Below are positions 1-64,000 of a DNA stretch of 64,000 nucleotides, piece by piece. This DNA comes from Physcia stellaris (lineage: Eukaryota > Ascomycota > Lecanoromycetes > Caliciales > Physciaceae). The first letter of the stretch is position 1; every line of letters begins with the position of its first letter. A model generated the notes under the pieces. The model saw only the letters and a program-made list of their open reading frames with translations, searched no databases and was not told the DNA's origin. The translations under genes were made by a program, and so were the position numbers. The DNA lies in NCBI GenBank assembly GCA_018902385.1, contig JABSSW010000023.1, forward strand, positions 604,584 through 668,583, written 5' to 3'.

Positions 1-1734
1 GCGATCGTAAAAATTTTAATTTAATTATTTGCAACGATATTGTAAACGATAATAATAATATCGAAATTGTAATATGTTATTTAATTTTTATTCGAATATT
101 TCATTTGCGATAACGAATTTAAAAAAATCGTTTTGTTGTTTTTTCAATAAATTTTTTGATTTTTTTCTTAACAATCACGAATAAAAAATTGAATAAATGT
201 GTATATCGTCGAACAATTTCAATTCGTAAACAAAATTTCGTTTTTTTGATATTTTTATATGAATTCAATTTTTTGTTACGTCGAAAAAAATGTTCGATTG
301 ATTTTGACGTTTGGAATTTGTTTCGAATCGTTTAATCAAATAATTAAAATCATTGTTTTTTATTGTTTCAAATCAACAACGTTTCGTTAAAAACAAATTT
401 CAAACAATTAAAATTTGTTTCAAATTGTTCATTGTTGATTCAAAATTTACATTTAAAATATTGAATTGTTTCAAAATGTTTTAAAACGCATTAAATAAAT
501 TCATTTTTTTTGTATATTTTTTTTGTTTTGTTGATTGTTGTTCGTGCGCATTATGCATTCAAAAAATTATTAAATTTTTTAATAATTTTTTCATTCGTTT
601 CGTTTTTTTGTTTTAAACATTCAAATCGTTTTTTACATGTCAAAATCATTGATAATTTGTATTGTTTTTGTCGTATCAAATATTTTTTATTTTTTTCATT
701 TCGCGTATGTTTTGAATTTTTTGTTTTAAAATGATTATTAGCGTTATTTTTATCATTGAATTTATCGATTCGTGTTAAATTATTAATTAAATTTTGATTG
801 ATTGTTTTTATTAAACACGAAATGCAAAGTTTGTATTTAATATATATTAAATTGTTTTCGTAATCACATTTTTGCATCGTTATTGATTTTTCGAAACGTT
901 TTTTATAATTTATTTGCAATTTTTTTTTTATTGAATTGTAATTTTCATTCGTTTTGATAAATCAAAATTTTTTTATTGAATTGTAATTTTCATTCGTTTT
1001 GATAAATCAAAATTTTCGATACAAAATATATTTAAATATTTTTTCGTTTTGTACATTCATTTTTTTTATATCATGTTTGTCAATTCAAATCGTACGTGAA
1101 CGTTCATTTTTGATTGTTTTGTTGTTTAATAAAATAATAAAATTGTTTTTTTTCGACGATTCGATTTTCAAATTTGCGTTTTTAATATTTTGTTATTTAT
1201 GATTGAACAATAAACACATTGATATTGCATATATAAATTCGATTTATCAATTTTTCGACACGTTTTTCAATTGTTTCGTTTTCGTATTGAATTCGTTTTT
1301 TTTCGTTGTTTTTTTTGTTTTTAATGAATCGATATTCGAATTTTAAACAATTGATGTCACGCGATCATTGTTTGTAAAACATTTGAAAACAAAACGAAAA
1401 TTCGAAATCGTGTCAAATTTTTTTTTCAAAAAACATGATATGATATTGTTATAATTGGCATTAATTTTTCGATTAACGAATTCATCGATTATATTCGAAT
1501 TATTGATGTCAATTTAAAAAAAAATTGATGTAAAAACGCATAAAACAATTTTTTTGTTGTTTCGCAAAATTTTGATCGTTTCGATGAAATAATCACATTT
1601 CAATGTAATGATTTTTGAAATTTCATTGTTTTTTGCGTTAATTGTGATTCGATTTTTGATTTTGTTTTAATAATATTTGCAAATTTCGTTTTGAATACGA
1701 AAATTCAAATTTGTTCAAATTAATATGTAAAATG
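1..1734. other. RIP-degraded AT-rich DNA, no gene recognised
   Basis: The sequence is strongly AT-rich and nearly lacks CpC, CpT, GpG and ApG, like the rest of the block. Short open frames on both strands (for example 510-734 and 551-919) have Phe/Lys/Asn-rich content that follows base composition alone. No retroelement motif was recognised. It is probably the remnant of an older transposon into which element B inserted, but nothing seen here names it. Confidence 0.6.
925..1014. repeat. Two-copy tandem repeat, 45-bp unit
   Basis: Positions 925-969 and 970-1014 are near-identical copies of a 45-bp unit containing attgaattgtaattttcatt and ending in gataaatcaaaatt. Because the copies remain almost identical inside heavily mutated DNA, the duplication is probably younger than most of the mutation around it. 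No function is apparent. Confidence 0.8.
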
Positions 1735-1739
1735 TAAAA

Positions 1740-1915
1740 TGTCATGCAATGATATGAGTTAACAACAGAATTTTAAATTGCAAAATTAATTATGAAAATC
1801 TAACAAATCATATGTAAATAATTTGATCATAATCGAAATTCGAATCAAGATTTCGATGTGATAAAATAAAAATTCAAACATTTATTAGAATTTAACACAT
1901 AATATGTTCGTCACA
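1740..1915 (-). repeat. Element B 3' LTR
   Basis: This 176-bp repeat pairs with 13270-13446. On the plus strand it runs from TGTCATGCAATG to TTCGTCACA, so on the element's own strand it has the usual TG...CA ends. It differs from its partner at many sites, mostly transitions, showing that the insertion is old. Confidence 0.85.
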
Positions 1916-1975
1916 TTATTTTTCGTTTTTTTTCAATTTCGTTTCGAAACGATTAATCATTTTTTTTCACTTTTT

Positions 1976-3782
1976 TCATCGATCGACGATTCGAAAAATA
2001 TGATTGATTAAAACGTTAATAAACGAACAAATCATTGCGAAAATTGAAATGATCGAAACAAATGCAACAAACGTGATTTGAAATCGAAAATCGAAAAAAC
2101 GACGAAAACGTAAACGAAAACGTAAATCATGTGAATGAAAATCTTGATTGCAAAAATGAAAATCTTGATTACAAAAATGAAAATTTTGATTACAAAAATG
2201 AAAATCTTGATTGCAACGAAATGTAAAAAATATTTGACTTTTTGTATGATGAAATGATCGATTTTTCAAACAAAACAAAACGACAAAACGATATCGATTT
2301 CGCGAACGTATATTGTTGAAAACTTTTCGAATTCGAATTTTTCAAATTTTGATTAATCGATGTCTTTTGATTGATTGCAAACAAAAAATAAACGATGATG
2401 CGAAATTGATATGTGACAAATGATCGAACGTCGATGTTTTGCGAAAAAAAACGACGTTTTTGATGTTGACGTAAATCAAATGATTTAAATTTTTCACGAA
2501 ACATGCGAATCAAATCATCGATGATGAAATAAAATTTCTAATGTTTTGATACAAATGTTCGAAAAAATGAAATCGAAAATGTAAATGAATTGATTGATAG
2601 TTTTTTTATCGATTTCGATGTAATAATGAATGTCGCAATAAAGAAATGTAAACATTTTGATGATATCGATGCAAAACAAAATATCGATTTTGATGTTGCA
2701 AAAAAAATAAACGAAAAAACAAACGAACAATTAAACGTTGCAATTTCGACACGTTTTGATGTAAATTCACGTGTGATTAACATTGTTGCGATTTTCGTTT
2801 GCTTTGATGAAATTTCGTGTAATGCAATCGAGAAATTCGAGCGAATTGATGACATCGATTTGAAAATTGTTGCAAAATGAAATATATGACTTCGTGATGT
2901 TGCAAAAGAAATCGACGAAACAAACGAAATTGACTTTTTCATGAATTTGTACGTAGATTCTGATGTAGAAAATCGAAAATTCGAATTAATATTCGATTTC
3001 TGACTATGTTGCTCGCGAATATGCTAGTGAAGTTTGTTTTTGAAATTGAAATCTTGTTCGCAATGTTTGCAAATCATTTTCGAACAACTGACTTGTTTCG
3101 TATGTTTTAAAAATCGAATTATTGACGAAAAATAAACGAAACATTCAACGCACGAATAATATTGCGACGAAAAATTTGAAATAAAAATAGATAATTTCGA
3201 TGTAAATTCGAACGAAATAGTAAAAAATGCACAAATCAAATTTTTGTCGAAATTTTGTATGATGATGAAATTTGATTGATTTTTGAATCATGCGAATGCA
3301 AAATTTCGAAAACATTTGAACAATAAATCGAACACATTTGATTTCAAATATTGATGTTGAATTTGTTGAAAATTTTGCAAAAAATTCATCATTTTGCTGT
3401 ATAAATCAAATTTCAAAATATCGCATATAAGAATTGAATCGAAAATATCGATATTACGAAATGTTGATTGAATTGTTTTTTTTTGAATTTATTCGATCAA
3501 TTCAACGTGTTTTTTCGCTTTTCATTTGATTTGACATTCAGTCAATTTGATTTCACGTTGTGTTTGTTTCTGAATTTTTTGCTCAGTCGATTGAGCTTTT
3601 TTTTGCTTGAACAAATCGCTCGTCAAGATTTTTGCTTTCGTTTGTATATGAGATTGTAATTTTGTTAATTCGATTTCAAATTTGATTTTTTCAATTAACG
3701 AACAATCGAAATTGTGATACGATTTGTAAATCATCAAAGCAAATTTATGAAAATTAACGCGACAATTTGAGCATTTTATCAA
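1976..3782 (-). pseudogene. Decayed gag-like gene of element B (C2H2 finger, former Pro-rich tail)
   Basis: Read from 3782 downwards, the remnant shows a Lys/Gln-rich probable coiled coil (3522-3782). Next is a finger, C-x2-C-x12-H-x4-H, at about 3006-3071, interrupted by one TAG codon. Then comes a Ser/Phe-rich stretch (2538-2942), followed by a conserved tail (2190-2513) containing MFREKF, INQKTSINQN and SKSFQQYTFAKS. The same tail is readable in the undamaged element (QNRPISQ, SFQQHTPAES near 31957-32060), which makes this a homologous gag-only gene. The Ser/Phe-rich stretch lines up with a Pro-rich stretch there, as expected if CCN codons became TCN or TTN. Several frame changes and stops mean it cannot be translated as one protein. 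Confidence 0.75.
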
Positions 3783-4353
3783 ATTATGTTTTTGATAAAA
3801 TTTCGCGTCGATTAACTCTTGTGATGTAAAATATTTTGAAAATTAATTTTTGATATCGAAAATACGCAATCGTTTTGCAGAGATATCGTGCTTGCTCATC
3901 GCGAAAACAAAAAATGACAATCGATTTGCTAAAAACTAAATAAAAATTTCGAAAAATTCTTCAATAGAAATGATGATGTAAATATTGAATATTTGATTGA
4001 ATGTTTTGATTCGTAAATTGTGATTCGAAATGTTATTGAAATTATCATCGAAACAAAAAACAAATGTTGATTTGTTAAATAAATAAATAAAATTTTGAAA
4101 AATTTTCAAATGTTAAAAATGATTCGAATGCTGAATTACGATGACGATTTTGAAATTTGATATGAAATTTTGAAATCGACTTTTTGAAAAATGTAAATGC
4201 TTATTTAATTTCGCGTATCACAAACGAGCGATAAAATAAATGTAATGATTTGAATAAACGTGTAAAAAAAAATCGAAATTCGTTGATTTGATGATTTAGA
4301 AATTAAAATCTGATCGACGAAATTCTGTTGCGAAATGAAGTTCGCAATGTTCG

Positions 4354-4507
4354 TGTTATGACATTAACTTACTGACATAACTAACTAGATGACTAGTAAA
4401 TGATTGTTTCGAAATCATAATGTCTTGACACGTGTAATATTTAATCAGCAATTTTTTCTAATTAGTCAATTCATTTTTTTTACATCATACAATTCTGTAT
4501 TATAACA
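4354..4507 (+). repeat. Element A 5' LTR
   Basis: The 154-bp repeat starts TGTTATGACATTAAC and ends CTGTATTATAACA. It keeps several CT and AG dinucleotides that are TT and AA in the 3' copy. Of 11 substitutions between the two LTRs, 8 are CT/TT or AG/AA and 3 are CA/TA or TG/TA. Confidence 0.92.
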
Positions 4508-4509
4508 TA

Positions 4510-4521
4510 TGATAACATCAT
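4510..4521 (+). promoter_or_regulatory. Element A primer-binding site
   Basis: TGATAACATCAT begins two bases after the LTR end. It equals TGGTAGCATCAT of the undamaged element (30501-30512) with two G-to-A changes of the local type. A tRNA ending ATGATGCTACCA would pair with it; the tRNA species was not identified. Confidence 0.7.
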
Positions 4522-5476
4522 CGAATTCTGTTTTGCATCATTGATAATTGACAAATCGATTAGAATTTTTTTACGCAATATCAACATTTGTTTGTTAGAA
4601 CATCAACATCAAAATCAACATCAAACGATTCGATTTATTCGATCGATCAATTTCAATTTCAATTTCAATCAATTCGTTCGTTTCGTTGCATTTTCGAATT
4701 TCGTATTGCAATCTGACTCATTTATTACGATATTTTCACGTAAGTGATTTACGAACTGTTTACATTGATTAATCAGCATCGTCGTCGTTCAGCAATATTA
4801 ACAATTTGATTTATTTATCGCATCAAACATCGAATTTTGCTCAATAAGTGAATGATTATTCATCAATTGAGTGTCTTTTTGCTTTGTGAAACGAGTTTGT
4901 CAACAATTTCGTCATTTTGTGTGCGTATTTTCCGATTATTGATCAGAAAATTTCGCATTTGTTTCACAATGTAACACAGACAATGACAAAGTGAATGATT
5001 CAAAGCATTTTTTTTTTATTTTTTTTTTCAGTTTTTCATTTCATTTGCAATTTTATCACTCGTTATTTGCTGTATTTGTTGATTTTTTCGTTGCAATTCG
5101 CACGTTTGTTGCACGTTGACATCAATTCGTTGATTATTGTACATTCGTTTGTTTCAATTCATTATTTATTGTACGTTGCAGAACACGCTGATTATCGTAC
5201 ATTTTTTGACGTGCATTTCGTTTGTTTTTGTATCAATTTTTCAAATTGACATTTTTTTCAATAAAATCGAATATAGTCAGTAAAACGTTCAAACTGTACG
5301 ATTTCAAAATTTTTGCAAACGTATTTTGATTATTCGAAGCATTCGAAATCGAAATTACTGTTTTAAACATTGTATTCAATTCAATTAAATCAATTGATTT
5401 ACGATTTCAATTTTTTCGATTTAAATTCGATTTCAAGAAATTTATTGATTGATTTTCGAATTAAAAACAGTCTCGT

Positions 5477-8390
5477 GTGTTCGTTAAAGTCGTTCGAAAT
5501 TTTTGCAACGTCATTACAATTTATCGTGATTCGAAGTATTTCAAACAATTGATTAAAATTTCACGACAACATTTTTCGTTTAACAGTTTTGTGACATTTT
5601 CGCAAAGTTCAAATACATCATCTAAGTCTGAATTGTCACAAGAATTACGAAATTCGTTTGCAAAAGTTTCACGAATATCACGTCGAAACAAATTCATAAT
5701 TAACATTGAAAACGTTTCTATTCGTTTCGATTTACGTTTTGTTTCGTCAAAAACATCAAATTATTCGTCTGTAATCAATTCATTTTCTCGACGTGTTACA
5801 AGCGTTACGTTTGTTGACGAGATTATTCATCACGAGTTTATTGAATTACAATTAACACGAAATATGATCGATTTCATTGTGAAACAGCAACGAATCATTG
5901 CAATCATTGTACGAAAAACTATTCAAATTATATCTCGTGAACGTGATGATGACGATGATGACGTTAAATCATTTAATTCGTTTAATTTTTCGAATTATTC
6001 GATCAAAATGACAATATTGACAGCAACATTAAGTGAAATTCGATTAATTTTGATTTTTTCGATTCATATTACGATGACAAATCATTGATTAATGAAATTA
6101 ATTCTATCGTTAATATTGAAAAGAATACATATTTTCGCGATGTACATTTGTTCATCGTACGAGCAAAGAAAATGACTTTTACGCGAAACGAACAATTAAT
6201 TAAAAACAATTTGTGACTTAGCTTAAAGAATATTGCGTTGAAATGATGAACAAATAAATTGTTTGACGTCGAACGTCGAATGATTAAAATGATTATAATT
6301 GAACAAAAAGAATTGTTTGAATGAATTAGTTTGTTGCACAACAAATTCAAACAATCTATTAACGTTATTATGAATAATTTAATGCAACAACGTTACACAT
6401 TGAAAAATGTCGTTGTACAGCGTGAATTTCGTGAATACGCACAAAAAATCATTCGATTAATCAAAAATGTTGACATGATCAACGTATTAAATCAATTCGA
6501 TTTCATTTACAATAACATCGATATTGATGTACGAGTTGACACGTTACGTCGTTTCAAAAATAATATCATTATCAACGAAATGCTTAGCGATATGAACGAA
6601 TTCAAACACGATTGATGAATTAAAGCTGTTAAATTACGCAACAATAAAATATTCAATTATGTAAATTGGCGAGATAGTGTCAGACGCAAACTACGTAACT
6701 AAATCTTATACACAAAATGCTTTTACACAATAAAAAACTAATTCATCGTTTTTCAAATCACAGAATTTCAACAGAGTTTTTACGTCGAATTAAATTTTGA
6801 AGTCACAAAATGTTCGATTCTCGACAATATTCATGATTATATATAACGATCAATCGTTTTTTTTTCGCAATTTCAAATTCGACGAATTTCGATTTCGTTT
6901 GACAAAACGTCTTCAAAATCACAACGTGAATTGTTATGGATTTTTTCAATACTTTTTGATCGAAAATTCGCAACGATGAAATGACGTTTCATCAAGCGAT
7001 CGATACGTTGTCGTTTTTTTTCAAGTTTTGCTGAATTTCAAAACGATGTATCGTCAAAATCATCGAAGTTTACAAGCAAATCATTGTTCATTGCGAAATG
7101 AAACAGTTCGCTCAGTTAAATTTCAAGCAACAATGCAAAATACTGATTATGATAATCACTATTTTGTTTGAATGTTCGAAGTCGAAACAATCAAAATTGC
7201 AACGAAATCAAATCAAGCGTCATGAGCTGAACAAAGCACAAACAATCTTCAAGATCTTCGAAAAAGCGAATTCGTTGAAAAGTGAAAATAAAAAAATTTT
7301 GAATCATGCTTTGAGACTGCGCGCGACGCAAATAAAAGCAACGTTTCGAATTGCTTTGTAATCATGTTGCGAAAAAAGGAAAATCTTAATGGAACTTGAC
7401 GAAAAAGATGAATTGAAAGTACATTTGAAATTGACGTTATCGAAATACGAATTTGATGAAGAGCGCTGATATAGAATAGAGATTGCAGATTGTAATGAAA
7501 GAAAAAAAATAACAAATGTAGAGGTTGATCGTCGTTATGATCATGAGAGTTCTGAGTTCGAGAATTGTCTTGCTATGAGATGTATTCGCAATAGTTGTTA
7601 TACACAATATGATTGTCATTTCTTTTCAGATTCGAACCTCAATATTCAAAATAATCGCATTTAATTATTTAGACAAAACGTTTGTTCACAGCAATTCGAT
7701 CAATATAACAATAACAATCGTCAATCGCAATTTCAACGACAATTATTTCAATTTCAATCGTTTCAGCGACAATTTTTTCAATCTCGTTATTCGAATAATA
7801 TTTATCAAAATCAATTTTTTCAATTTCGTCAGAATTATCAGCAAGCAAAATATCAAAATTACAAATCAATTGATTATCAAGTCGATTATTCAAATAATCA
7901 AAAAAATCAATATTCAAACGTCAACGTTTGCACGTTGTTTATTTTATCGAATCGATTACAAATTACAGTCGATTCAACAAACGTCAACGCGTCAAATTCG
8001 AATCAACAGCAATTTATGTCATCGCGACAGTTTTTTAAATCGCTTAACAATATTCAACGAGACGATTATAGTGATTACGATGAATATGCACAGCGTTTTC
8101 AAACAACGTATCAAATTAACGTGATTGACGAAACGAATGAAAATAATTACATAAATGATATTAGCGATGCTCATTGATTAGTCGACTATAATGATATTAA
8201 CGATAACGTATTCGTTTACGATGATCAATCAAATTTACTCGATGATTACAATCAGAACGCGAAAATTGCACAAAATGTCAATTTTTTGTCATCAATTACA
8301 GAAGTCAGCACTGATGCACATATTTGTAATCACTGTAACAATATTTTTACGTTTAGAAATCAATTATTCAAGCATTTACGTAGCGCATGT
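5477..8390 (+). pseudogene. Element A gag remnant with Gln-rich tail and C2HC finger
   Basis: Broken open frames (5477-6088, 6331-6615, 7098-7361, 7692-8177) cover the capsid gene. The motif KNTYFRDVH near 6120-6150 recurs as KNTYFRNVH in element F, which supports a shared Gag. Codons 7692-8177 give a long Gln/Asn/Tyr-rich segment with many intact CAA codons. It is followed by a finger at 8325-8390 of the form C-x2-C-x12-H-x4-C, and then directly by the protease. A CCHC knuckle, typical of many Gypsy Gags, was not seen, so the C2HC finger probably takes its nucleic-acid-binding place. Frame breaks and TGA stops make it non-functional. Confidence 0.75.
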
Positions 8391-9378
8391 TGATTTTTTG
8401 ATACGTTCAAACACGTCAATCACGCAACATTGCACGATAATTTTATGATGTCGCACGTTAATCACGCTGTATCGATAATAAAATTATCATTTTCGTTTAT
8501 TTCAAACATTAAGATTTTTCGCAGAAAGATTTACGAGTTTTCACACGTTTTTTTTTCAGTCAATCGTCGCGTTATTCAGTTTATTGTACGTTTTGACGAA
8601 ATTAGTTTTGATTACGTTTTTCGTGAATATCAATACGATCAGACTATCGTTAAATTAGATAATAGCATCGAAAACATCAAGATATGCATCGATATTGATT
8701 GTTTTGTTATTATGATTGATCGCAAATTTCTTCACACAATTATTATTTAATGTATCGATGCAAAAATTAATTTTATTTATATTTGTGCGAAATGTGAATG
8801 ACAAAATTGTCAAATCAAACAAGTTCATGTTTGTTAATATGACGTTTGATGAAATGTTCAAATCAAAACACGAAATTATTGACGTTATTGAAATTGAAAT
8901 GCATTTTATTGATGATTTTGCAATCAACATATTGTTCGTTAATGATGTTATTTATTCACAAAATATCAAAATAGATTTCGAAAAGCGTCGTTTTATTATA
9001 ATCAAATATGAAAATCTTCGTGTGTCAATTGATGTGTTTAATCGAGTTATTTCGCACGTCAAACGTATCATTCGTTTTCGTCAAACATACATTTTACAAT
9101 TTGATGATTTTGCGAAAATACTCGTTACGTATCACGACTTTTCTTTTGACGATAAAGACTTTTTTTTTGAATTTTATTGTCAATACGATTTAGATTACGA
9201 TGATGACGTGTATGCACACGTTGTGAATAACAATTTATTCAAAATGTTCGTTCGCAACGTTACATTTCAATTTATTACGTTTGCGAAACGTGCACGACTA
9301 AATATGATTATTGAATACAATCAAATTGAATGTTATTTGACTATGTCAAAAAAATCGTACAAAACAATCAATGATTGA
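8391..9378 (+). pseudogene. Element A aspartic protease remnant
   Basis: In frame after the finger, CIDID at about 8685-8699, followed by MIDRKF, matches the retroviral-type protease active site (usual form hydrophobic-DTG with a following IDRKFL). Thr-Gly has become Ile-Asp (ACT to ATT, GGT to GAT), which destroys the flap-side glycine. The frame at 8716-9378 continues with HFIDDFAINILFVNDVI, which corresponds to the beta-strand segment after the active site in fungal Gypsy proteases. The enzyme would have processed Gag-Pol during particle maturation. Element F has the same layout at 25256-26014. Confidence 0.78.
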
Positions 9379-9695
9379 ATGAACGATCGTTTATGAAAAA
9401 AACAATTGATCGTCAATTTTGTTATTTTTGTTGCAACGTATGTTACATTAGACACAATTTCGCACGTTTCGCACGAATCGATTACATCGTTGAACGAGTT
9501 TATTGTATCGTTCATTTCGAGCATTCAGCTCGTTGTGTTTATTGTGTCACAAATCGATTTGAGTCTGAAACACGTGTTATCTAGTGACGTTATCGTGTAC
9601 GAAGTTGAAATGTTCGAATTAGTTAATTTAATGAACAATTATCAGAACATATTTCGCGATTTTGACTTGATTGTAAACATTTCTGAAAACGAATA

Positions 9696-11291
9696 AATGT
9701 TTATTAATTTTAAATCTGAAACTGTATTTAAATTCAACAAAATATATTTTTTAAAAGTCAAGAATCGCAATTTTATTGACGTTATTTTCGACAAATTACA
9801 TCAACAAAACAAATTGCATTGAACGATTCAATTTATTTCGTTCAATTATTCAGTTTTCGTTGTTTGACGCGACATTTTCACAAATAAAAAAAACGTGTAA
9901 TGATAAACATAAAAAACTTAAACGACATCATTGAAAGCGACAATTATTTGTTTTCATTGCAATTTGATATCATAATTGAAATTGTCGATTCATTTTACAT
10001 TTTTATAATTGATGTTGTGAATTGATTTCATCAATTCAACGTGCAACGCAAAAATCGTCACAAGTTCACTATTGTGACGCATCGTGAACAAAAAAAATTC
10101 AATGTAATTTTTATAAATTACAAAAATTCATTTTCATACGTGCAACGTCAAACGAACAAACTATTACGTTCGTACAAACAATTTGTTAAAACGTACGTGA
10201 ACGATATTATCGTTCATTTCAAAATTTTACGAAAACATTTGAAACATTTACGCACGTTTTTTCAAATGTTTCGCACGAAACGCATTAATTTAACTGTCAC
10301 GAAGTCGTTTTTAGCGTATTTTTTTGTTATTTTGTTAAATCAACGAATTGATAGTTTAAACATGTTTATTATTGCTGAAAAAATAATCGTCATTATTTCA
10401 TTACGTTTTTCATTTAGTTTGCGTGATTTCGAAATTTTCATAAAGTTTACGAATTAATTACGTTTATCAATATTTCGTTACGCTCAACGTGTGCAATCGT
10501 TACAAAAACGTAAAATCACGTTCACGAAAAACGTTATTGTCAACGAATTTGCACGAAAAAAACAAACAATTAAGACGCAATTATACGATTTTATTTTCGA
10601 AAAACATATCGTTTTTCGAAACTTGCAGATCGCATTCGTTTCATCAACGTTTTTGATTCATTTCGACAAAAAACGTCGATTTTACATTGATTTGAATATT
10701 TTCAAACAATGAAATTTTGCAACAATAATGTATTACATGCTAAATGATTTATTTAGCGATGTCACGTATTCGCGTACAGTCATTCAATCAATAATGTTTT
10801 TTAGTCGATGTTTGAATGACGTCGAAAAAAACTATTAATCAACAGAATTGAAAATAATCGACATTGTGTGAATAATTCGTAAAGTCAAACATATGATAAA
10901 ATCAATTGAAATATTTTCAGTTATCATTTACATTGATCATTTTGTTGTTGTATTCATTAGTCGACAAAATATTTTCATTATTTTCAATAATGATAAGTTA
11001 AATTTACGATTTGTGCGAATTTCGCAATATTTATTCGATTTTAATTTGTTTGTTAAACACAAAATTGACAAAACGAACGTAATGTCAAATGTTTTATTCA
11101 GATTACAGATTGTCGTGATTATTATTGACAAAATCGACGTATTCGAATCATTGTACGAACATATTTTGAAATTCACGCAAGCAAATTTGATTTTGAAAAC
11201 ATTTTTGTATTTTTATCATGTGACGTTAATAAAAATGTCAAACGATTTCAAAATTCGATTTAAACAAACGTATCAAAATGACGAGCATTGA
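9696..11291 (+). pseudogene. Element A reverse transcriptase and RNase H remnant
   Basis: The reverse transcriptase is readable from FDKLHQQNKL (about 9795) through LNDIIESDNY and IIDVVN-stop-FHQFNVQ (9930-10040) to the catalytic box YVNDII at 10194-10211. The usual YVDD is now YVND, so one of the two metal-binding aspartates is lost. The stop before FHQF is TGA where a Trp stood. RNase H follows: FLIHFDKKRRFYIDLN (about 10650-10700), then the tether region with IIYIDHF and LNLRFVRISQYL (about 10925-11030). The enzyme would copy element RNA into DNA inside Gag particles. The frame shifts at least twice. Confidence 0.88.
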
Positions 11292-11492
11292 TTCAAAATA
11301 TTCGTCATTGTACGATTTGTTGTCGTAATTGACACAATTACGTCAATTACATTTTCGCACGAAATTGTTGTTACGAACGAAACTATATCGACGCACGAAA
11401 TTATTTTTGTAATCACATTTGCTATCGCTTCGCTGAAGATTTACGAGTTTTTTGATTTTCGTGATGTACGCTTTCGATACAAAAATGACTTA

Positions 11493-12890: not shown

Positions 12891-13024
12891 CGTTTTAGAA
12901 ATAGATTTCGAAAAACAAGACGCGAATAAATGATTAATGTGTGATATGTTGATCAGAACATGATTATATGTATAGATTAAATGTGTCAGTGAAAGCATTG
13001 AGTTTTTTTTTGTTGCTGTGCATT

Positions 13025-13446: not shown

Positions 13447-13451
13447 TAAAA

Positions 13452-46342: not shown

Positions 46343-46374
<32 letters not shown>

Positions 46375-52452: not shown

Positions 52453-52454
52453 AT

Positions 52455-52637
52455 TGTAATGATCAGATTGTTTGACAAAAGATCTTTCGACAATCGAAAC
52501 GATATATTCGTCTAGAATTCAGAATCTAATTCTGATTTTGAATTTTGTCAAAATCAATTATGCGTTCTTTGCGATTAATTTATTATATAAAGTCAAACGA
52601 TTTCTCACATTAATTTTATTAGTTTTGAATTTTTACA
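52455..52637 (+). repeat. Element H 5' LTR
   Basis: It starts TGTAATGATCAGATTG and ends TTGAATTTTTACA. It retains CT or AG at 10 of the 14 positions where the two LTRs differ, so it is less mutated than the 3' copy. Confidence 0.95.
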
Positions 52638-52638
52638 T

Positions 52639-52650
52639 TGATAACATCAT
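52639..52650 (+). promoter_or_regulatory. Element H primer-binding site
   Basis: TGATAACATCAT begins one base after the LTR. It is identical to that of A and equals TGGTAGCATCAT with two G-to-A changes. The shared site contrasts with the different Gag type, suggesting a widely used priming tRNA. Confidence 0.72.
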
Positions 52651-52774
52651 TTTTTTTACATTTACAATGTATTTGATTGTGTTCATTGTTTTTTGTCAAT
52701 TCAAATTGCTTTCGCTGCACTTGATATTCATTTGAGAATTCAAAATTTCTAAAATTTTTTACTCATTAATCATC

Positions 52775-53886: not shown

Positions 53887-56060
53887 CGATTTCGTCGAGA
53901 CGATAAAAATCGTGACAAAAACAGAAATTCGAAAAACGTTTGAAATCGTCGTCGCATGAATTGCACGATGATCGCGATGAATCGTTCAAAATCGACAAAA
54001 AAAACGATTCGATAATTGAAAATGAACAAATTTCGTTTATCACAATCACGATTTCGAAGATGTCAAATATAAAAACGTCGAAATCTTGAAATTTTGAAAT
54101 TCGTGAAAAAAATTCGTACATTTCAAAAATACAATCGAAAAACGAATTGATGTTTTTAATCAATCTGAATGCTAATAAACGTATGTCGAAAACGTGATTA
54201 CGTTTCGATGTGAACGCAAAAAAAAAACGTCGCGTCGTTGTATTTGCAAATTCGAATGTTTTTCATTGTTTCATTGTTCAACGCATTGTCGATTTGTTGA
54301 AATTAAAATTACAACATTTTTTTGACAAAATGCAATTGAAAAGTGATAAGACTGTTGACGTCGTTGATTTCACTAAGTTTAATTAAAACAAAAATGAATT
54401 TCATACAATCATTGATTGTTTGATTCTTAATATGAATAACGATTTGATTTTAGACGAAAATTTTTGACAAAAATATCGTCTAATTTCTGATTACAATACG
54501 CTCGATATGCGTGTAACAGACGAAAATCAGAAATTTCTGCTTGCGAACATGAAAGATCACAATTTTCGTTTGCAAATTTTCGAAAATCAATCATTTAAAA
54601 TTCAAATTGTAACGAGACGTGCTTTCGAGCGATTGATACGAAAAAACGTTCAAATTTATCTGTACGTTGTTCGTATTATTGATCAAGAAATCGTCAAATC
54701 GTCTAAGAAATTTGCTTTTATTCAACACATTATCGACAACGCGAAACTGAACAAAATTTTGAATTTCGATGTGTTGAAAAAAATCTTTAGAAACGATTTT
54801 TCGAATCAATCATTTCGAAAAGATCGCAAAATCATCGTATTGATATTGAAAACGTTAAATCAATAAACAAGTTTTCGTACGAGTTTTTTAAGAAGCAGTT
54901 GAACGAACAAGCTATTCAAATCGATTATTTAACAAAAAAATTTAATACGATCAAGCACGTTGTCATGAAAAGCATCAATTTTCTTTGTCAAAAAAATGAC
55001 TTTTGACGTATGTGTATAAATTATAAAATTCTCAACGCGATGACGCAAAAAAACGATTATTCATTGTCGAAAATTCAAGATTGTTTAAACATGATCGAAA
55101 CAACGAAAAATTTTAACAAAATTGATTTAATTAATGACTATTGACAAATCAATGTGATCGAAAATGATCGTCACAAAACAACATTCAATATCAGACGAAA
55201 CAAATATGAATTCTGCGTTATGTTTTTCGAATTGATTAATGTTTTTGCGATTTTTCAAGCAATCATGAATGATATGCTGAAATCGTATTTGAACAAATTT
55301 GTGATCGTTTATTTGAACGACATATTGATTTATTTCAAAAACGACGAAAAGCATTTCGAACATGTGAAACTCGTGATTGAAATTTTTCATAAACATGATT
55401 ATTATGCGAAATCGTCGAAATGTTCTTTCTTTCAACAGCAAATTGAATTTTGTGAACATATCGTTGACAATGATGAAATACGCATGAACGAAATCAAATT
55501 GAAAATTATACAAAATTGATCGTCGTTTCAAACGATACACGATGTTCGTTTTTTCTTGAATTTTTGTGTTTATTATCGAAAATTCATAAAAAATTTCGTC
55601 ATCATTATTGAGTCACTTTACGAGCTTATTCAAAAAACTGAAAATCGCAAATACAAATCGATGTTTATGACATTTTCGATCAAAAACGTTTTTACGATCA
55701 TCAAAAACGTCATGTGTAATGATCGTGTATTGACACAATCTGATACGTTTTTGTCGTTCATCATTGAAATCGATGTTTCGAATTTCGAATGAAAAACGAT
55801 ACTTTATCAAATAGATTTCGATGACAAAAACATTTTAATGTTTTCGAAAACAAAGCATTTTTTTTCGTCGAACGTAATTATGCGATTCACGAACGTGAAC
55901 TTTTGATCATCAAAAAAAGTTTGCGAAAATGAAAATGTTACGTGAAAAATGAAACGACAATTTTGATGCGTACGAATCACGTCGAATTGCAACATTTGAA
56001 AAATACGATGAAATCATCGAATCGTCTGATTCGTTGATTCGTTAAATTCGAAAAATATCG
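53887..56060 (+). pseudogene. Element H protease region, reverse transcriptase and RNase H remnant
   Basis: The protease must lie in 53900-54450 but no active site was recognised. From 54507 to 54866 the linker (FERLIRKNVQIYLYVVRIID) is readable. Reverse transcriptase follows: NDF-TGA-RMCINYKILNAMT (about 55005-55050), KIDLINDY-TGA-QINVIEND (about 55118-55168) and YLNDILIYF at 55310-55336. The two TGA codons stand at conserved Trp positions, and YLDD has become YLND. RNase H is in 55556-55800 (FCVYYRKFIKNF, then VLTQSDTFLSFIIEIDVSN). Confidence 0.85.
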
Positions 56061-56556
56061 TTTGAACATCAAATATAAATCGAAATTTGAAATGATTGTG
56101 TTCGATATTTTGAATCGAAAAAGCGACTATCGTTTGCGATTTTTGCAAATAAATTTGCGTATTATCATTTTCGACGAAACGATGATAATTTATACGCGCG
56201 ATGAAATTCTGTCAAATAAAATGAAATGAAATGCGAAATTGAAAAAATATGAAAATCAATTCAAATTGAACGACGATAATGTTTCGCATCATCGAAATTT
56301 TTTCGTTGACAATTGAATTTTTTACATCGAATTTTGAGTTCGTGCAAATTATCTGAATTATGTTCACAAAATTTATGATCATTGCTCGAATACGATTTTG
56401 TTTAACATCATTAAAATCAAACAATGATGATTCGACATGCGCAAAAACATCAAACATTTTGTGCGAACGTGTTCAGAATGTCAATTGATCGTCAAATTCA
56501 AAAACGTCAAAAAAGATGTAATGCATTTTTCAAAAACTTGATCTGATAAAAATCAA

Positions 56557-57216
56557 TCATTTGAACGTTGAAATTTCGATTTGATCGAATCATTATTTAT
56601 CATTGTCAATGATAACAAATGAATCGTGATTGTTATTGATTATACGATCAAATGATTTGTTGCACGCGTTATTTCTGAAACAATTTTCGAAACTTTTGCG
56701 AACTTCGTGATCAACGATATTTATCGTGATTACGAAATTTTCAAGAAAATCATCACTGATAAAAATGTCAATTTGTGAACATTTGTTATGATCAAGACAT
56801 TTGCGTTGCTTAAAATCAAACATAAAAATATTATTTTTTATCATTCAAGAACGAACGAAACAGTGAAACGTTTCAATGACGTTTTGAATCATATGTTGAT
56901 CAAATATTGCATTGAAAATTTTATCAAGAATTGAAACATTTATTTGAATCAGATTTTGTTCGTCACGCGAATTCGAACGCATACGACGATTGACTTTTCA
57001 TTTTTTTATTTTTTCTATGAAGTTAATTCGATTTTGTTTGACGATGTCGATGAGTCAATTTCAAATCTCTATGACGAAAAAATAGATTCGATTTCATTTT
57101 TGAATCGTGAACGCGCAAAAACATTCAAAAAAATCATGCAACGTGTTAAAAAAACAAAACAATCTGAAATGCGAAAATCAAAAAAGAAATTTTTCACGAA
57201 AACGACAAGATATTGA
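56557..57216 (+). pseudogene. Element H integrase core remnant
   Basis: A single frame of 220 codons runs without any frame change and with five stops, all TGA, at 56569, 56620, 56653, 56776 and 56932. Each stands at or near a Trp expected in Gypsy integrases. The first two catalytic positions (NFDLIES and IITDKNVNL) keep Asp, each preceded by a pyrimidine. The third (NETVKRFN) has Lys for Glu. The C-terminal part reads LNQILFVTRIRTHTTIDF and LNRERAKTFKKIMQR. The zinc-binding end lies upstream in 56330-56520 (HFVRTCSECQ near 56456). No chromodomain was recognised beyond 57216. Confidence 0.85.
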
Positions 57217-58198
57217 TATGAACGAAAAAATCAAAAAAATTCGAAATCGATTGATATGATTTTTACGAAATCGTACGCAATGAAATTTTGAATATTTATG
57301 TGTTCAAATCGTCTGAAAAGTCGTCAAATAAGTATTTTATCAATGATGATCGAATGAAATTGATCAATGTGAATGAAAAAATGAACAAAAATTGACGTAT
57401 GTTTAGAAATCGCGAACGTTCGTTCAAAGCAAAAAAACAATTTAAAATCATTGACGTCGTTGCGAAAAAAGTCGTAACATCGAAAAAAAAACGTGACAAA
57501 TCGCGCAAAGTTCGAAATGCTGAAAAAAAAATTCGAATGAAAACTATATGTCATTTTCGAATGATGAACTTTTTGAAAACGATGACATAATATGAATCAT
57601 TTAGAAAAAAAAAATGTTTGTCGAATTTTGTACGATTCATACAAAGTGATTTCACGCGAAAAATCGAATTTTTTGTTGTTTTTTTCTTTATGTTATTGTT
57701 GTTGTTATTGTCGTTCTTTTCTTTTGAAATTTCCGAAAAGTGAAAAAAATCGTATTTATTATTCAAATTTTCGCATCTTTGTTTCGTTCTGTGAAATTTG
57801 ATTTAAAATACGAGTAAATCATGAATCAATGCAATCAAGAAATAATCGATTGATTTTTTCGTATCGTCGCATGTAACGCAAACACGATGAAATCGTTTTT
57901 TATAACATTGATTTTTCGTAACATGATTCATAAAAACAAATAACGCTCAACGTCGAATCTCTAATTTTCAACAAAAAAATTTATCGCTTTTTTTCAATTT
58001 TCATCTCGAAAATCATGTTTTACGAAATTTTTAATTTTCAACGTTATCGATATCACGACATCGAACGATCGAACGTTTTTTTTTTTTAACGTCGTAACGC
58101 AACGATCGACTTTTTAGATTTGACGACGAAAACATGAACACGTTCGAAACGTGTATCATTTTTTTATTTTGACGACGTTGTTCAAATCGTCGTTGCAA

Positions 58199-59118
58199 TC
58201 AATCAAAATCAAAAAAATGATTTTGATTTCGGAAAATCAAAAACGACATCGTTTCGAAATTTTGAACAATCGATGATTGTGTTACAATCGATGATTGTGC
58301 AACAATCGTTGATTGTGTTGATTGATTCGACTTTGATATTTCGTTTTCGTTCGTCGATTCGAATTTTTCATTCGCGATATCGAACGACGATGAAGTTGAC
58401 GACGAAAACATCGAATCGTTTTCATCGTTCATGAAAATATTTTCATTTTCATTTGATGATTGATCGAATCGAATTGCGTTTGAATCGTCGTCGCAATCGA
58501 TGTCATTGCAAACATTGATTGCGATGAAAACGATAACAAAATCGTTGAAATTGATAATATTTCAAATTTTCGTCGATTGATTCGCACAAAAAAGTACGAC
58601 GATAAATTGTCAATCGCATCGTCGTGAACACGCGTATCAATTCGATTAACGAACGTAATTGAAATATTGTGTTGCTCAATTATCGAATCAAAACTTGTAA
58701 CGAAAACGTATTTGCTAAAAGAACATTCGAAAACACGATGCATGTAAATGCAATTGTCGCATGTTTTTTGATTGACGTTTGTGAAAATCATACAAACAAT
58801 GAACGAGCGATTGTTCGAACATTGATTGCATGAAAATTCAATTTTTCGATCGTTACATTAAATCAATTGTCAACATTGATAATCATCGTACGCGTTCAAC
58901 GAAAAATATTGAAAATTTGAAAAATTTTTTATTTGAATTAGAATAGTTGTCAAATTTTGAAAATGCGTAATCTGAAAACGATTTTCATTTTCGAAATATT
59001 CGATGTTCATTTTTATTGTTGTTCGACGCAAATTCGAATGCTTTTCACGAAATTGCGTCGTCAAACGATTTAAAAATTGCTCATTATTAATCACGATCAT
59101 CGTTGATTTGAATTTCAT
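58199..59118 (-). pseudogene. Antisense gene candidate in element H with two CxxCx8C motifs
   Basis: Between integrase and 3' LTR, on the strand opposite to gag-pol, broken frames run from 59118 to 58199. Read in the frame of 58429-58791 and upstream of its ATG, two similar motifs appear: CNQCSNNRSFIVC (about 58800-58840) and CDNCIYMHRVFEC (about 58720-58765), each C-x2-C-x8-C. The C-terminal part (58199-58432) has a threefold repeat based on QSSIV. The product is not recognised. Additional antisense genes at this site are known in some plant Gypsy elements; a parallel here is inference. Confidence 0.5.
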
Positions 59119-59422
59119 TTATCGTCGTTTGATTGACAATTCGCGCGCGATTGTTGTCATAAATTATCGTTCGATCAGTCAATTGCGCATACAAATTGAC
59201 TGAAAACGAAATTATTTTACAAATGATTCAGAATTTTTCGATCATGCTGTTGTTGTCGAAAAATAAAAAAAAATATGTTTTGTTGACATTCAAATGATTT
59301 TAACATTCTTGTTTCAAATATTTATTTCGTACACGTTTTGAAATCAACTTACGATGTTTGCGAGAATTTTCTTGATGATGCGCAATATGATTGTTTATCT
59401 GTTTGTTGTTTAAAAAAAAAAA

Positions 59423-59605
59423 TGTAATGATCAAATTGTTTGACAGAAAATTTTTCGACAATCGAAACGATATATTCGTCTAAAATTCAAAATTTAATTT
59501 TGATTTTGAATTTTGTCAAAATCAATTATGCGTTTTTTGCGATTAGTTTATTATATAAAATCAAACGATCTTTCACATTAATTCTATTAGTTTTGAATTT
59601 TTACA
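59423..59605 (+). repeat. Element H 3' LTR
   Basis: This is the partner of 52455-52637. It is preceded by an eleven-base A tract at 59412-59422 that can serve as polypurine tract. It is more mutated than the 5' LTR, retaining CT or AG at only four of the 14 differing sites. Confidence 0.95.
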
Positions 59606-60070
59606 ATATTTGAAAATTTCGATTTATGATCAAAAGAATTTCGATCGATGAATTTTGATTTTCGTTTTTTGATTCGAATTGTTATGTCGTTTTTGTTTTG
59701 TGATTTTCGATGTTTGTTTTTCAATTCGATAATTGCAAATTTTTTGTTTGTCATTTTAATAATGTCGACGTCGTCAATATCGAAAATATAATTAATATTC
59801 ATGATATTGTCAATATCATCAACGTGATTAAAATTAAAAACATTGTTTTCGTCGTGAACAAAATTGAAAATATTATCATTATCGAAAACATAAACAAAAT
59901 TCGAAAAAATATCGTCATTCGAATGATTAACAATTGAATTTTCGTCATTATCGTCAATATCGAAAATATCGTCATTATTGACAACAAAATCGTCATTTCG
60001 ATCAATATCGACGACATTATTATTATCGAAAACACGATCAAAATTAAAAACATCGTTTTTATCGTCAATC
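59587..60070 (-). pseudogene. N-terminal part of the open frame split by element H
   Basis: The minus-strand frame 59587-59802 overlaps the LTR of H only because translation runs on into it. Its real continuation is 52452-52117. Upstream, to about 60070, another minus-strand frame gives an Asp/Asn/Val-rich stretch repeating NDDIFDID-like units, and the DNA there repeats atcgtcaatatcgaaaat. A further minus-strand frame at 60408-60713 (KQYKNYFEIVEQIRTKLTI) may belong to the same gene. No family was recognised. Confidence 0.5.
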
Positions 60071-62689
60071 GATAAAACGAAAAAAACGAAACGTGATTAA
60101 AATCGATCGCGATTATTTCATAACACGTAATTTACGTCAAAAAAACGTTTCATGATGTCAAAAATATTTCAATTCGAATTCGAATTCGAATCGACGTGCG
60201 TGATCAATGAATTTCAAAACGAAATAATATCAAATTTCGATATGATAAAAAAAATTTAAATTTTAACATTTTGAAATGAAAATGAAACAATTCAAACGAA
60301 AACAACGATACATTTTTAAATTGATCGATTTCGAATTGTTTCAAAATATTTCGTATATTTGAATACACGAAATATTTATTGTGATATTGTGAATATCAAT
60401 ACACGATTCAAAAAAATGTGTATTCGATTTTTTTGATTTTGATAAATCGTTTGTATTGTTTTTCGATTTTGTGCAAAACGTGAAATGTAATTTGAATAAA
60501 CAAATTGCGATAAAATTGTCGATTAAATTTCGTAATTGTTAATTTCGTTCGAATTTGTTCAACGATTTCGAAATAATTTTTATATTGTTTAAAAAATAAA
60601 ATTTTCAAACGTTTGATTACAAATTTTATATTGTCAATGAAACATTTGAACATTTGTTTCAAAATGCGATAATCGTTTTCAATTCGAAAAAATTTATAAA
60701 CGTTGAAATGCAATATGTCGTTGATGTTGTAATTGCAAAAACAACGTCGTTATGAAACATTAAATCAAATTTTGCACAAATACACGATTTCGTCGCGATA
60801 AAAACGTTCGTATTTATTTTTCAAATTTTTTCAAATTAATTTGTAATTTTCACGAATGAAAACGTAAACAATTTCGAATCAATGTTTCATGAATGATGAT
60901 CATTTTTGTTCGATTTTGTCATCGTTAAAAAAATGTTTGCAATGTTTTCGAATTTTTTTGTTCATGTAATAAATGAAAAAAAAAAATTTTTGTTATTGAA
61001 TATCGAAATTCGAAAATTTCGAACAATATTCAATTCGAAATAAAAACGATTACGAAAAAAAAATTGAAAATTTAATTGTCGATACAATTGATCGATATTT
61101 TCATCATTCATGTCAAATTCGTTTTATTTTTTGTATTAATAAAAATTAAATTTCAATAAAAATTAATGTTTAATGAAATTTGTTTCAAAAAAACAAATAT
61201 CAACAATTCGTATTGTTTGATTTTGCAAATGTTATTCAACACGAAAATTTCGAAATTTTGAATAAAAATTGAACGACATAATTGTTGACAAAAAAATTTT
61301 TTTTTCAAACGATCGTGATATTTCGCATCACGACAACAACAAAATCAATTGATAAAATCGAAATTAAAAACGTTGTACAAAATTTTTATAAAAATGTCAA
61401 TGTTTAATTTTCGCGTTTTGATTTTTTTTTTCGCATTGTAAATATTTTGAAAAATGAAAAAATAATTGAAATGATTCGTGATCAAATCATTTAAAATTTC
61501 GATCGAAATTATATTTATGTTTGTTAAATTGAAAATTGAATTTGTCGATTAAAAAATTGATTTTTGTCGTTTGCAATTGAAATTTTTTCAAAATTTTATT
61601 TGTTATTTGATGTTTGTGATATACACGAAAATTTTTCGTTGAAACGAACGAATAATTATAAAATTTCGTTTTAATTGTGAATTTTCATAACGTCGCACGA
61701 ACGTTTTTGTAACATGTGATTTTTTATGAACAATTTTAATCGCATTCAAACGTAATTTTAAAACGTTTCGTGATAATTGAATTATTTTTTATAATTGAAC
61801 GATATTTTAATCGTTTAATTTTGATATTGTAATTATGATTTTCGACGTAAATTATAAAAACGTCATGTTTTGTTTCAAAAATGTGATATCATACAACAAA
61901 TTCAATTGATTCGTTCGAAAAAATATTTCGACGATTGTAAAAAATGCGAAAAATTGATTGTTCGTCATTTTGATGTGATCAAATCATTATAAACAAAAAC
62001 AACGAATTGTTAACGATTAATTAATCGAAATTTGTAAAAACGAATTCAATCGTATATCGTTAATAATTTTACAATAACAAAATCGAATTGTCGAAATTTC
62101 GAACAACGATAATAAAAAAAAAATGATAATAATATTTTGCGTTTGTTATTTGTTTTTGTTTGAAATAATATTTTCAAAAAAAATCGTATATCGTTGATTT
62201 TAAAATTTAAAAACGATGATTGAATCGATTTAATTTTAAATATTTTTCATTGTACGTCAAAAATGATTTTTGAACGAAAACAAAAAAACGTTATATGCGA
62301 AATTGATTGTAATACAATAAAATCGAAAATGTTTGTTACAAAAAATATTTTCGTTTGATGTATGTTTTTTTTGAAAATAATTTTTTCAAATATGATCGTA
62401 TCGCGTTGATTTCAAAATCGATAAATTGTGATCGAATCGATTTGATTTCAAACATTTTACATCGTACGTCAATTATATAATGTTGACGAAATCAACAAAA
62501 CATTGATTGTTAAACAAATGATGTTGCGATAAAAACGAAAATGTTTGTTACGAAAATGAAACGACGACATCATCACAACATGATTTGTTTACGCGATTTC
62601 ATTTTCGCGATTACACGTGTCAAAATTAATCAATAAAATTCGAGTTTTTATTGATTATACGATAGCGTCACGTTAATAACGTCACGCGC
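60071..62689. other. Degraded AT-rich DNA up to the isochore edge
   Basis: Apart from the frame 60408-60713 nothing coding is supported. At 62150-62475 a tandem duplication with a period of 212 bp is visible. The last bases (62640-62690) already contain GC-rich words such as gtcacgcgcgg. Confidence 0.5.
62150..62475. repeat. Imperfect tandem duplication, period 212 bp
   Basis: The segment 62150-62262 and the segment 62362-62475 align through atttaattttaaatattttt and gatttgatttcaaacatttt to a shared gtacgtcaa (62252 and 62464). Many differences are CG/TA or other types, so the copies are old. Confidence 0.7.
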
Positions 62690-64000
62690 GGTTTGCATTT
62701 TCAGATTTCGAAACTGTCAATCTGCAGGTAAAATGTTTTTGCATAGACGATGTTCGCTGGCCGAGCCAATCACCAAAGTCTCTATACAGAACTCTTCAGG
62801 AGCATTAGCTCAAATACCCAACTCACCCATCCATCAAAACAGAATCCACCATCACCACACGTCGTCTCGGAAAATGGTCTCCTCCACCCCACCCAAAGCT
62901 CGTCCTCGTACGATCCCCATGCCGGTCTCAATCTGTTTTCTCGCCCTCTTCGTATTGTTTCTCTACATATCATCCTCCGCAATAAGCTTCTGGCGGCTTG
63001 CTTTCGGCATGATAATGGAAAAACCAAGTGTTGGGAGGGTCATAGTGTGTCTCTTGAGTCCACTACTTTCTATGGTGGTGATACCGCTCTTCGTTGTCCG
63101 CTCTGTTGGCATCGGGAGGGTTTTCTCGAGATTTGATTATATTTTCTGGAAATTAGTGTAAGTGTTGTACGGTGTGAATATATGTGGATGATGAAGGGGG
63201 ACTGATGAAGATGTAGCGATGGTGAGGGAGAATGGGATTGGAATTGGGATGGAGATGGAGATCTGGAAGCTGGATATGGTAAGAGGAAAGGTGGGCTACG
63301 AAACAAAGAATGGGTCAAAGATGTTGCATAGTGGAGCAAAGCATGAAGAGAATTGATTAACTGATCAGGAACCGATCTTGTGGGTACTTTATAGACCTAC
63401 GAATACGCGATTTGAGACGAAGTCAAAAGATGATGTTTTCTACACGTCATAGTCATTTTCGAGACTGTTCACTATGCAATAGCTTTGACCCGTTCTCTTA
63501 TAAAGGTTGAGCGGGTAGTGACGAGAGGAAGATCCCACGATTTATTATGCGGAGTAGACTTTGTAAGGAAAAAAAGAAAGTTTTATGGAGAAGAAGTAAT
63601 TCCCGGGAACACTATTCTCTTTGTCTCCGTTTCTAGATATTTGAAGGCTCGAGTGACTTAGAAGCATACCATAAATAAAGTCGACGATTTGATGAGATGA
63701 TTCTGGGCTCCGATGGTATTCTTGCATATTGAACTATCTATTGGCCTTGTGGCGTGCAGCATCCTCAACAGTATTACATACCTTCATGATTTACTCGATT
63801 ACTGCCGGAGAAATGCAAAATGATAATGCTATGATTTTCAAACGATTCCAGCATCCGATCAATCAAACTCAATCTTGAGACCCTCTCAAACCACAATCCG
63901 CTTTTGATTCAACCTCAACCTTGCGCACGGATACTCCTCCAATAGTTCAATCTCTACAATTATTCCATGCTCTTCCGATTTATTGTCCAAATGAGTCTAC
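62690..64000. other. Normal-composition DNA, no confident gene
   Basis: CC, CT, GG and AG are all common here, in contrast to the preceding 62.7 kb. Two overlapping plus-strand frames exist, 62733-63161 (with hydrophobic stretches such as ICFLALFVLFLYI) and 62750-63136 (ending CPLCWHREGFLEI). Neither is recognised, and introns could be present. From 63170 to 64000 no frame longer than 90 codons is convincing. This is probably the flank of a host gene region. Confidence 0.45.

Follow-up and report, generated by a model that had tools for sequence, protein, structure and literature searches.

What kind of process removes nearly every CpC and most CpT from fungal repeats and leaves CpA and CpG in place? 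This question is raised by a 64,000-nucleotide stretch of the genome of the lichen fungus Physcia stellaris (hereafter, the window), in which two AT-rich blocks of mutated repeats (1..30348 and 32712..62689, the second more heavily mutated) have almost no CC/GG and depleted CT/AG but keep CA/TG/CG. With a probability of roughly 0.87, we attribute the changes in P. stellaris repeats to a RIP-type process with the inverted target order CpC > CpT >> CpA = CpG.

Dinucleotide composition and elements of the window

Against 100 mononucleotide shuffles for each of the blocks 1-30050 and 33000-62500 (59.5 kb in total), we found 13 and 2 CC+GG, compared with shuffle means of 1045 and 949 (minima 978 and 877). 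CT+AG (shuffle means 2909 and 2784) were reduced 5-10 fold in both blocks, and CA, TG, and CG were retained. The individual counts were CC 4, GG 9, CT 264, AG 336, CA 1853, TG 2082, and CG 1680 in the first block (CG observed/expected 3.23) and CC 1, GG 1, CT 138, AG 141, CA 1826, TG 1663, and CG 1854 in the second (3.91). The depletion is symmetric between the strands, as a sequence-only reading had noticed from the rarity of ApG and GpG. Its counts at 8701-8880 (CA 13, CG 5, CT 1, CC 0) were reproduced exactly, and those at 31081-31140 were CT 6, CA 3, CG 2, and CC 1 within the stretch, with the C at 31140 preceding a T and bringing CT to the 7 reported. The extent it claimed, 1-62690, holds for both AT-rich blocks but not for an unaffected island between them.

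This island (30349..32711, forward strand) is a short LTR element that lies inserted in mutated sequence and is itself un-mutated; its 151-bp LTRs (30349-30499 and 32561-32711) are identical, and copies of the target-site duplication TATGC flank it (30344..30348 and 32712..32716). The reading frames inside are C2H2-like, with matches that fall under Pfam's cut-off. Another GC-normal, un-mutated stretch lies at the contig end (62690..64000). Within the mutated blocks, reverse-transcriptase-like remnants with TGA stops are located at 36644..38740 and 54821..55879 on the forward strand, and a fragmented one with TGA and TAA stops at 17958..20050 on the reverse strand. Stops tallied by hand in 136 of the 140 stop-listing rows, of supporting value only, were TGA 243, TAA 33, and TAG 3. 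Pfam searches at E 0.01 returned no match for eight of the nine long open frames in the AT-rich blocks; the ninth (12135-12737) has a weak SH3_Tf2-1 match below the Pfam cut-off.

Sequence context of the mutations

For a polarised test, the un-mutated retroelement copy L057 was used as the reference for four mutated copies (L067, L068, L069, and L070, in this order below). CpC was read as T at 376/484, 422/486, 457/490, and 462/488 sites (78-95% lost) and CpT at 185/422, 213/423, 327/431, and 345/429 sites (44-80% lost). The corresponding values for CpA were 15/443, 15/440, 22/444, and 20/443 (3-5%), and those for CpG were 10/458, 11/457, 10/458, and 9/459 (2%). Between two un-mutated copies (L056 vs. 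L057), the background was CpA 17/443, CpC 23/485, CpG 14/452, and CpT 20/428, such that the CpA change in the mutated copies equals the background of 3.8% and reveals no CpA preference. Both strands carry C-to-T changes (read as G-to-A on the opposite strand), in some patches confined to a single strand; there is little else, as transversions amount to 0.5-0.8% and T-to-C changes to 11-27 of 1640. The dose of change is graded among copies, and CpC was mutated at 1.8 to 2.9 times the rate of CpT. In the main frame of this retroelement, TGG became TGA at 5, 8, 10, and 10 of the 10 sites, a change that the sequence-only reading had ascribed to this process, and all new stops are of this kind; none arose from the Gln codons CAA/CAG (0/36) or from CGA (0/22).

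Two further families gave similar contexts. Compared with the un-mutated island of the window, L054 was changed at CpC 76/127, CpT 46/125, CpA 8/119, and CpG 16/124. Among 14 copies of a third family, the transversion-filtered C/T mismatch fraction was.986 for CpC,.822 for CpT,.151 for CpA, and.149 for CpG. Two other tabulations were rejected. A column-wise inference over 14 copies (CpA.40, CpC.84, CpG.42, CpT.80) included unaligned flanks, and unfiltered pairwise counts (CpA.32, CpC.99, CpG.28, CpT.86) came with 12128 A/T mismatches, which made us suspect misalignment; transversion-filtered counts and un-mutated reference copies took their place. The proposal of C-to-T change before pyrimidines on both strands is therefore supported against un-mutated copies, with CpA and CpG at background. 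Neither of the refuting outcomes named in the sequence-only reading was found: most changes do not fall at CpA, and the elements were not CpY-poor from the start, since un-mutated relatives exist and are CpY-rich.

Distribution among loci and un-mutated repeats

We compared 70 loci of the genome, which were fetched by similarity rather than at random, partly overlap each other or the window, and do not constitute a genome census. The 41 AT-rich loci (GC < 0.36) have means per kb of 2.7 for CC+GG, 37.9 for CT+AG, 130.1 for CA+TG, and 120.8 for CGx2, compared with 118.9, 124.9, 134.8, and 116.6, respectively, in the 11 GC-normal loci (GC > 0.44); the 18 loci of in-between GC were left out of both means. 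One AT-rich locus retains 53 CC+GG per kb. Among these similarity-fetched loci, the mutated ones examined are repeats, and the loci that hold the methyltransferase genes are spared.

Many repeat copies are mutated, yet some close relatives are intact: over 3.47 kb, L056 shares 95% identity with L057, and over 4.2 kb, L050 shares 97% with L051. In the island family, the matched part has escaped mutation at 18 of 19 loci, with pairwise identity reaching 86%. The survival of un-mutated pairs at 95-97% identity counts against strict RIP. The process therefore either passes over some repeats, or happens rarely, or has ceased by now.

Proposed process and alternative explanations

The RIP-type process would recognise duplicated DNA and mutate it during the sexual cycle, in bouts that each hit a single strand. 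Its catalyst may be a RID/Masc1-type or DIM-2-type cytosine methyltransferase with a target choice shifted to CpY. The search for such enzymes that the sequence-only reading had suggested was positive: the genome encodes one DIM-2-like and two RID-like methyltransferases, the RID/Masc1-type genes being at L001 and L003. As a guess, a RID paralogue is the responsible enzyme somewhat more probably than anything else; something other than these genes seems a rather improbable guess, and DIM-2 a slightly poorer one. It is also possible, although we hold this only tentatively, that a distinct RID paralogue, represented by the L001 clade (most members of which have SPPCQ/P-x-FSP and MEET[F/Y]GLL), turned into a CpY-specific mutator, and that this form of RIP occurs in several lineages, lichen fungi at least. 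If so, it would have been overlooked because RIP indices rest on CpA and TpA.

Among the alternatives, gradual deamination of CpY methylated by DIM-2 in heterochromatin, with no RIP bouts, is improbable but survives best. The genome does have a DIM-2-like gene, and a CpT preference is ascribed to Neurospora DIM-2 in the available part of a review (PMC13297926). However, L067 and L070 lost 78-95% of their CpC with transversions at 0.5-0.8%, compared with 1.2% between two un-mutated copies, and one-strand patches also argue against slow decay. L067 and L068 share 540 mutated sites of 558 and 625, where independence would give 389, and are thus not independent copies; 85 sites are mutated in L068 but not in L067, and 72 of these sit on the same strand, within two patches. 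One-strand clusters are also present in 3 of 14 bins of L067.

Such one-strand patches of C-to-T change would also suit an AID/APOBEC-type cytidine deaminase acting on single-stranded DNA. These enzymes pick their targets by the base preceding C. Here the next base decides which C is changed and the preceding base hardly matters, both at CpC (ACC.91, CCC.88, GCC.85, TCC.89) and at CpT (ACT.62, CCT.67, GCT.56, TCT.65), which makes this explanation very improbable.

We give almost no credence to the view that the elements were always poor in CpC and CpT or that general AT drift removed both. The family A segment (8001..10000) matched 14 places, including the window's own, over 1560 or more of its 2000 bases, and no un-mutated copy was among them. 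However, CC and CT abound in the un-mutated copies of two other families, and AT drift would not spare CpA and CpG; for both polarised families the view is already refuted. The idea that long-read assembly or base calling produced the pattern deserves equally little: Nanopore and Illumina data were combined in a hybrid assembly (PMC7513301, available part), but the doses are graded, patches are one-stranded, CC is normal in islands of the same contig, and matching Pro and Gly loss recurs in 33 closely related proteins from ENA sources. Two of eight scans of viral contigs were covered and contained no DNA of relatives. CpG-methylation decay of the Masc2/DNMT1 type was rejected based on the CpG change of 2% and CG observed/expected of 3.2-3.9 in the blocks, as was methylation induced premeiotically (MIP), which is methylation without mutation, given the mutations present here.

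Comparison with known systems

Like the RIP-type process proposed here, RIP of Neurospora crassa makes C-to-T changes in repeats on both strands with one-strand clusters, 91.9% of clusters being one-stranded in the available part of the source (PMC7296669), and P. stellaris has RID-like and DIM-2-like genes. The target order differs, being CpA > CpT > CpG > CpC in Neurospora (PMC5496416, in part); the contrast with classical RIP drawn by the sequence-only reading is thus confirmed, with CA and TG kept and CpA at background. This reversal means that standard RIP scores miss the mutated repeats. TpA/ApT is 0.49 and 0.44 in the mutated blocks vs. 0.63 in the intact island, and (CpA+TpG)/(ApC+GpT) is 1.32 and 1.28 vs. 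1.31. Since these values resemble intact DNA, tools with the thresholds 0.89 and 1.03 quoted in the literature would label thoroughly mutated DNA as un-RIPped.

A kingdom-wide survey, as far as its accessible text goes, describes a CpA preference shared by RIP-like defences (PMC12543289), and excerpts of other sources indicate that this preference is usual but not defining, with other orders reported (PMC4352252, PMC6180176, PMC5496416). CpT is among the targets in Botrytis, Sclerotinia, Magnaporthe, Colletotrichum truncatum, and Anisogramma, as it is here; unlike in P. stellaris, the available parts of these reports do not list CpC among the targets (PMC4352252, PMC10998396, PMC6180176). Also unlike here, CpA is the first or second signature in Botrytis, Sclerotinia, Magnaporthe, and Anisogramma, which have at least one RID/Masc1 gene (PMC4352252, PMC10998396, in part). 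The C. truncatum families called CpT have a CpA index of 0.08-0.12 (PMC6180176, in part), compared with 1.3 in P. stellaris. Cladonia rangiformis is likewise a lichen fungus with heavily AT-rich repeats and RID and DIM-2 homologues, but its RIP is described without next-base analysis in the available text, which mentions neither CpA nor CpT (PMC12542154). Microbotryum transposons have C-to-T changes in a strict context as well, but the target is TpCpG, with a Masc2-type enzyme and no RID in the part of the source available (PMC4352252).

Trichoderma reesei RIP also makes C-to-T changes in duplicated DNA, but CpA and CpG come first and CpC last. The measured Neurospora and Trichoderma orders thus both put CpC last in the available text (PMC5496416), whereas P. 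stellaris has the reverse order, with hardly any leakage, which suggests that RIP target choice can evolve. The residues that set this choice could be sought by part swaps between RID types in Neurospora.

Context of C-to-T Changes

C-to-T mutation at CpC and CpT (together CpY), probably of the RIP type and with CpA and CpG spared, can be polarised in a P. stellaris retroelement that has both un-mutated and mutated copies. The two un-mutated copies, L056 (contig C5) and L057 (C12), are GC-normal, contain long open frames, and share 95% identity. The search with L057 found at least 41 matching stretches including these two (40 of 236 candidates scored), and the four best matches after them, the mutated copies L067, L068, L069, and L070, were compared with L057 as the reference. 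In this order, the fractions read as T were.777,.868,.933, and.947 for CpC;.438,.504,.759, and.804 for CpT;.034,.034,.050, and.045 for CpA; and.022,.024,.022, and.020 for CpG. The background from L056 vs. L057 was.038 (CpA),.047 (CpC),.031 (CpG), and.047 (CpT), which places both CpA and CpG of the mutated copies at background. CpY accounts for 96% of their C-to-T changes, T-to-C changes number 11–27 of 1640, and transversions amount to 0.5–0.8%; swapping the reference to L056 gave near-identical figures. The apparent rate at CpC is 1.8–2.9 times that at CpT. The base 5′ of the mutated C has a small influence. As for the second base after C, CCC (.79) is the sole outlier below CCA, CCG, and CCT (.88–.93), and CTA (.70) and CTT (.68) exceed CTC (.58) and CTG (.59).

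The sequence-only reading had proposed this CpY specificity for the window, and its next-base counts in two small stretches were correct on recount. Both whole blocks have near-total loss of CC/GG and much lowered CT/AG, with CA, TG, and CG retained: positions 1–30050 have CC 4, GG 9, CT 264, AG 336, CA 1853, TG 2082, and CG 1680, and positions 33000–62500 have CC 1, GG 1, CT 138, AG 141, CA 1826, TG 1663, and CG 1854. Shuffled blocks contain approximately 1045 and 949 CC+GG, respectively. Unaffected DNA within the window lies at 30349–32711 and 62690–64000, the latter being GC-normal with short open frames only and located at the contig end, as the window runs to the right end of contig C23 (604584–668583 of 668583). 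The mutated segment 41376–42336 has 93% identity to the flank of L039 (C2), a copy of the short element at 30349–32711. The genome analyzed has 43.97 Mb in 147 contigs; the available text on the published assembly gives 46.57 Mb in 184 scaffolds from an ascospore-grown culture (PMC7513301), and our smaller contig set may be a trimmed version of it.

Effects on Codons and Proteins

In the 901-codon frame of L057, stops in the mutated copies arise solely at TGG codons and always as TGA (5, 8, 10, and 10 of 10 in L067–L070). RIP of the CpA type, as in Neurospora, would turn Gln codons into TAA and TAG; the 36 CAA/CAG and 22 CGA codons of this frame gave no stops in these copies. Three reverse transcriptase (RT)-like stretches of the window were aligned at 26–32% identity to P. 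stellaris RT proteins free of such mutation, some to two proteins such that residues were counted twice. Pro was kept at 0/86 positions (Phe 31, Ser 20), Gly at 0/84, and Trp at 0/28 (15 now stops); His was kept at 31/53, Gln at 20/71, Met at 11/35, and Cys at 11/24. There are 24 additional stops opposite residues other than Trp.

A mutated RT frame (L069:973–1764) that lacks Pro, Gly, and Trp was used as the query against a protein collection. Among the 120 matches listed of 211 found, 113 have <3% Pro+Gly+Trp and none has <4% His+Gln+Met+Cys. With the un-mutated protein of L057 as the reference, the 33 close matches kept Pro at 0/477 positions (Ser 227, Phe 201, Leu 41) and Gly at 0/261 (now mainly Asp, Asn, Lys, and Glu), with 77–93% of His, Gln, Met, and Cys kept. 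The 87 distant matches kept 6% of 1327 Pro, 6% of 785 Gly, 58% of His, 35% of Gln, 52% of Met, and 54% of Cys. Trp was kept at 28/29 positions in the close matches (P0238–P0270), although Pro and Gly are gone entirely; since Trp is encoded by TGG and expected to be lost, this counts against a simple reading of these proteins, and perhaps gene callers read TGA as Trp. Because the query composition and the search length limit favor such matches, they speak to the existence of the signature and not to its frequency. Part of them may be from P. stellaris itself, and they inform on CpC, not CpT.

Mutated and Spared Repeats

A short LTR element makes up the island at 30349–32711; its two 151-bp LTRs are identical, and its target duplication reads TATGC. 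For its family, 19 other loci were fetched among 90 matches listed, with L037 and L045 overlapping, so not all are separate copies. Over the matched part, 18 of the 19 are GC-rich and un-mutated, and L054 is the sole mutated one (C read as T relative to the island: CpC 76/127, CpT 46/125, CpA 8/119, CpG 16/124). The 18 loci (L036–L053) have normal CC/CT despite their position in or beside mutated DNA, and the copies are 72–86% alike. In their longer alignments to the island, C-to-T is mostly.11–.16 at CpG and mostly.02–.06 at CpA; this higher CpG value is a separate background effect of ordinary divergence. Family A, a mutated repeat (8001–10000), has 14 matches of at least 1560 bases including the window's own, and none is un-mutated. 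In pairs, for transversion-poor parts only, C/T mismatch fractions are.986 (CpC),.822 (CpT),.151 (CpA), and.149 (CpG). The latter two are clearly above zero and probably reflect ordinary divergence, because the copies are old. Two island-family loci, L050 (C102) and L051 (C71), share 97% identity over ~4.2 kb, mutated flanks included, and represent either a post-mutation segmental duplication or uncollapsed assembly copies. The un-mutated pairs L056/L057 (95%) and L050/L051 (97%), together with the mostly un-mutated island family, indicate that not all repeats were hit.

In L067, three of 14 bins (250 bases) are near one-stranded (1/30, 1/23, and 0/32 vs. 25/34, 27/34, and 26/34; Fisher p 1e-8 to 1e-11, bins chosen post hoc); no bins of comparable strand purity were found in L068, L069, or L070. 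L067 and L068 have 540 mutated sites in common (of 558 and 625; 389 expected if independent), so the two either come from a single mutated ancestor or underwent mutation jointly. Among 85 sites mutated in L068 but not in L067, 72 are on one strand, in two patches (bins 0–3 and 8–9); the simplest reading is that L068 received later one-strand bouts there. L069 and L070 are nearly independent (717 shared vs. 688 expected). According to the available text of PMC7296669, 91.9% of the clusters left by RIP in Neurospora are confined to one strand.

Methyltransferase Genes

A PF00145 search of the P. stellaris genome gave four matches in three genes. The DIM-2-like L002 has 9bap and 9baq, presumably Neurospora DIM-2, as its top solved relatives (E 2e-181). 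The other two, L001 and L003, are RID-like, and one RID-like gene is located on C5. Methyltransferase motifs were seen by eye in both, split over separate pieces that are taken for exons. In a tree of 54 hand-picked rows, L001 and L003 fall in separate clades. The L001 clade (17 rows; 100/100) adjoins Aspergillus, Penicillium, and Cyphellophora proteins (93/94), and its sole named member is Heterodermia, which belongs to Physciaceae, the family of Physcia. The clade of L003 holds further lichen proteins as well as Xylona (99/96), and a third clade unites Lecanora helva with a second Haloplaca protein (100/98). At least three RID-like clades thus occur among lichen fungi in this tree (L001, L003, P0171, P0178); Physcia has two and Haloplaca has a different pair. 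As for the enzyme, timing, and trigger of CpY mutation in P. stellaris, these are matters that we infer.

Comparison With Known RIP Systems

Anisogramma has two RID genes and a CpA plus CpT signature in the available text of PMC10998396, such that a RID gene pair alone does not predict CpY. Among lichens, Cladonia metacorallifera and Gyalolechia flavorubescens are RIP-positive by index in the portion of the survey available (PMC7882544), which suggests CpA loss; CpY targeting is thus probably not general across the class. In the open-licence literature, as far as its text was available, no report of CpC-led RIP, or of CpY RIP sparing CpA, was found. The preferences reported in the accessible text of these sources, including the survey PMC12543289, are CpA, CpG, CpT, and mixed, and CpT to TpT was dominant in the RIP-positive control fungi of one survey, as given in its available part (PMC7882544).
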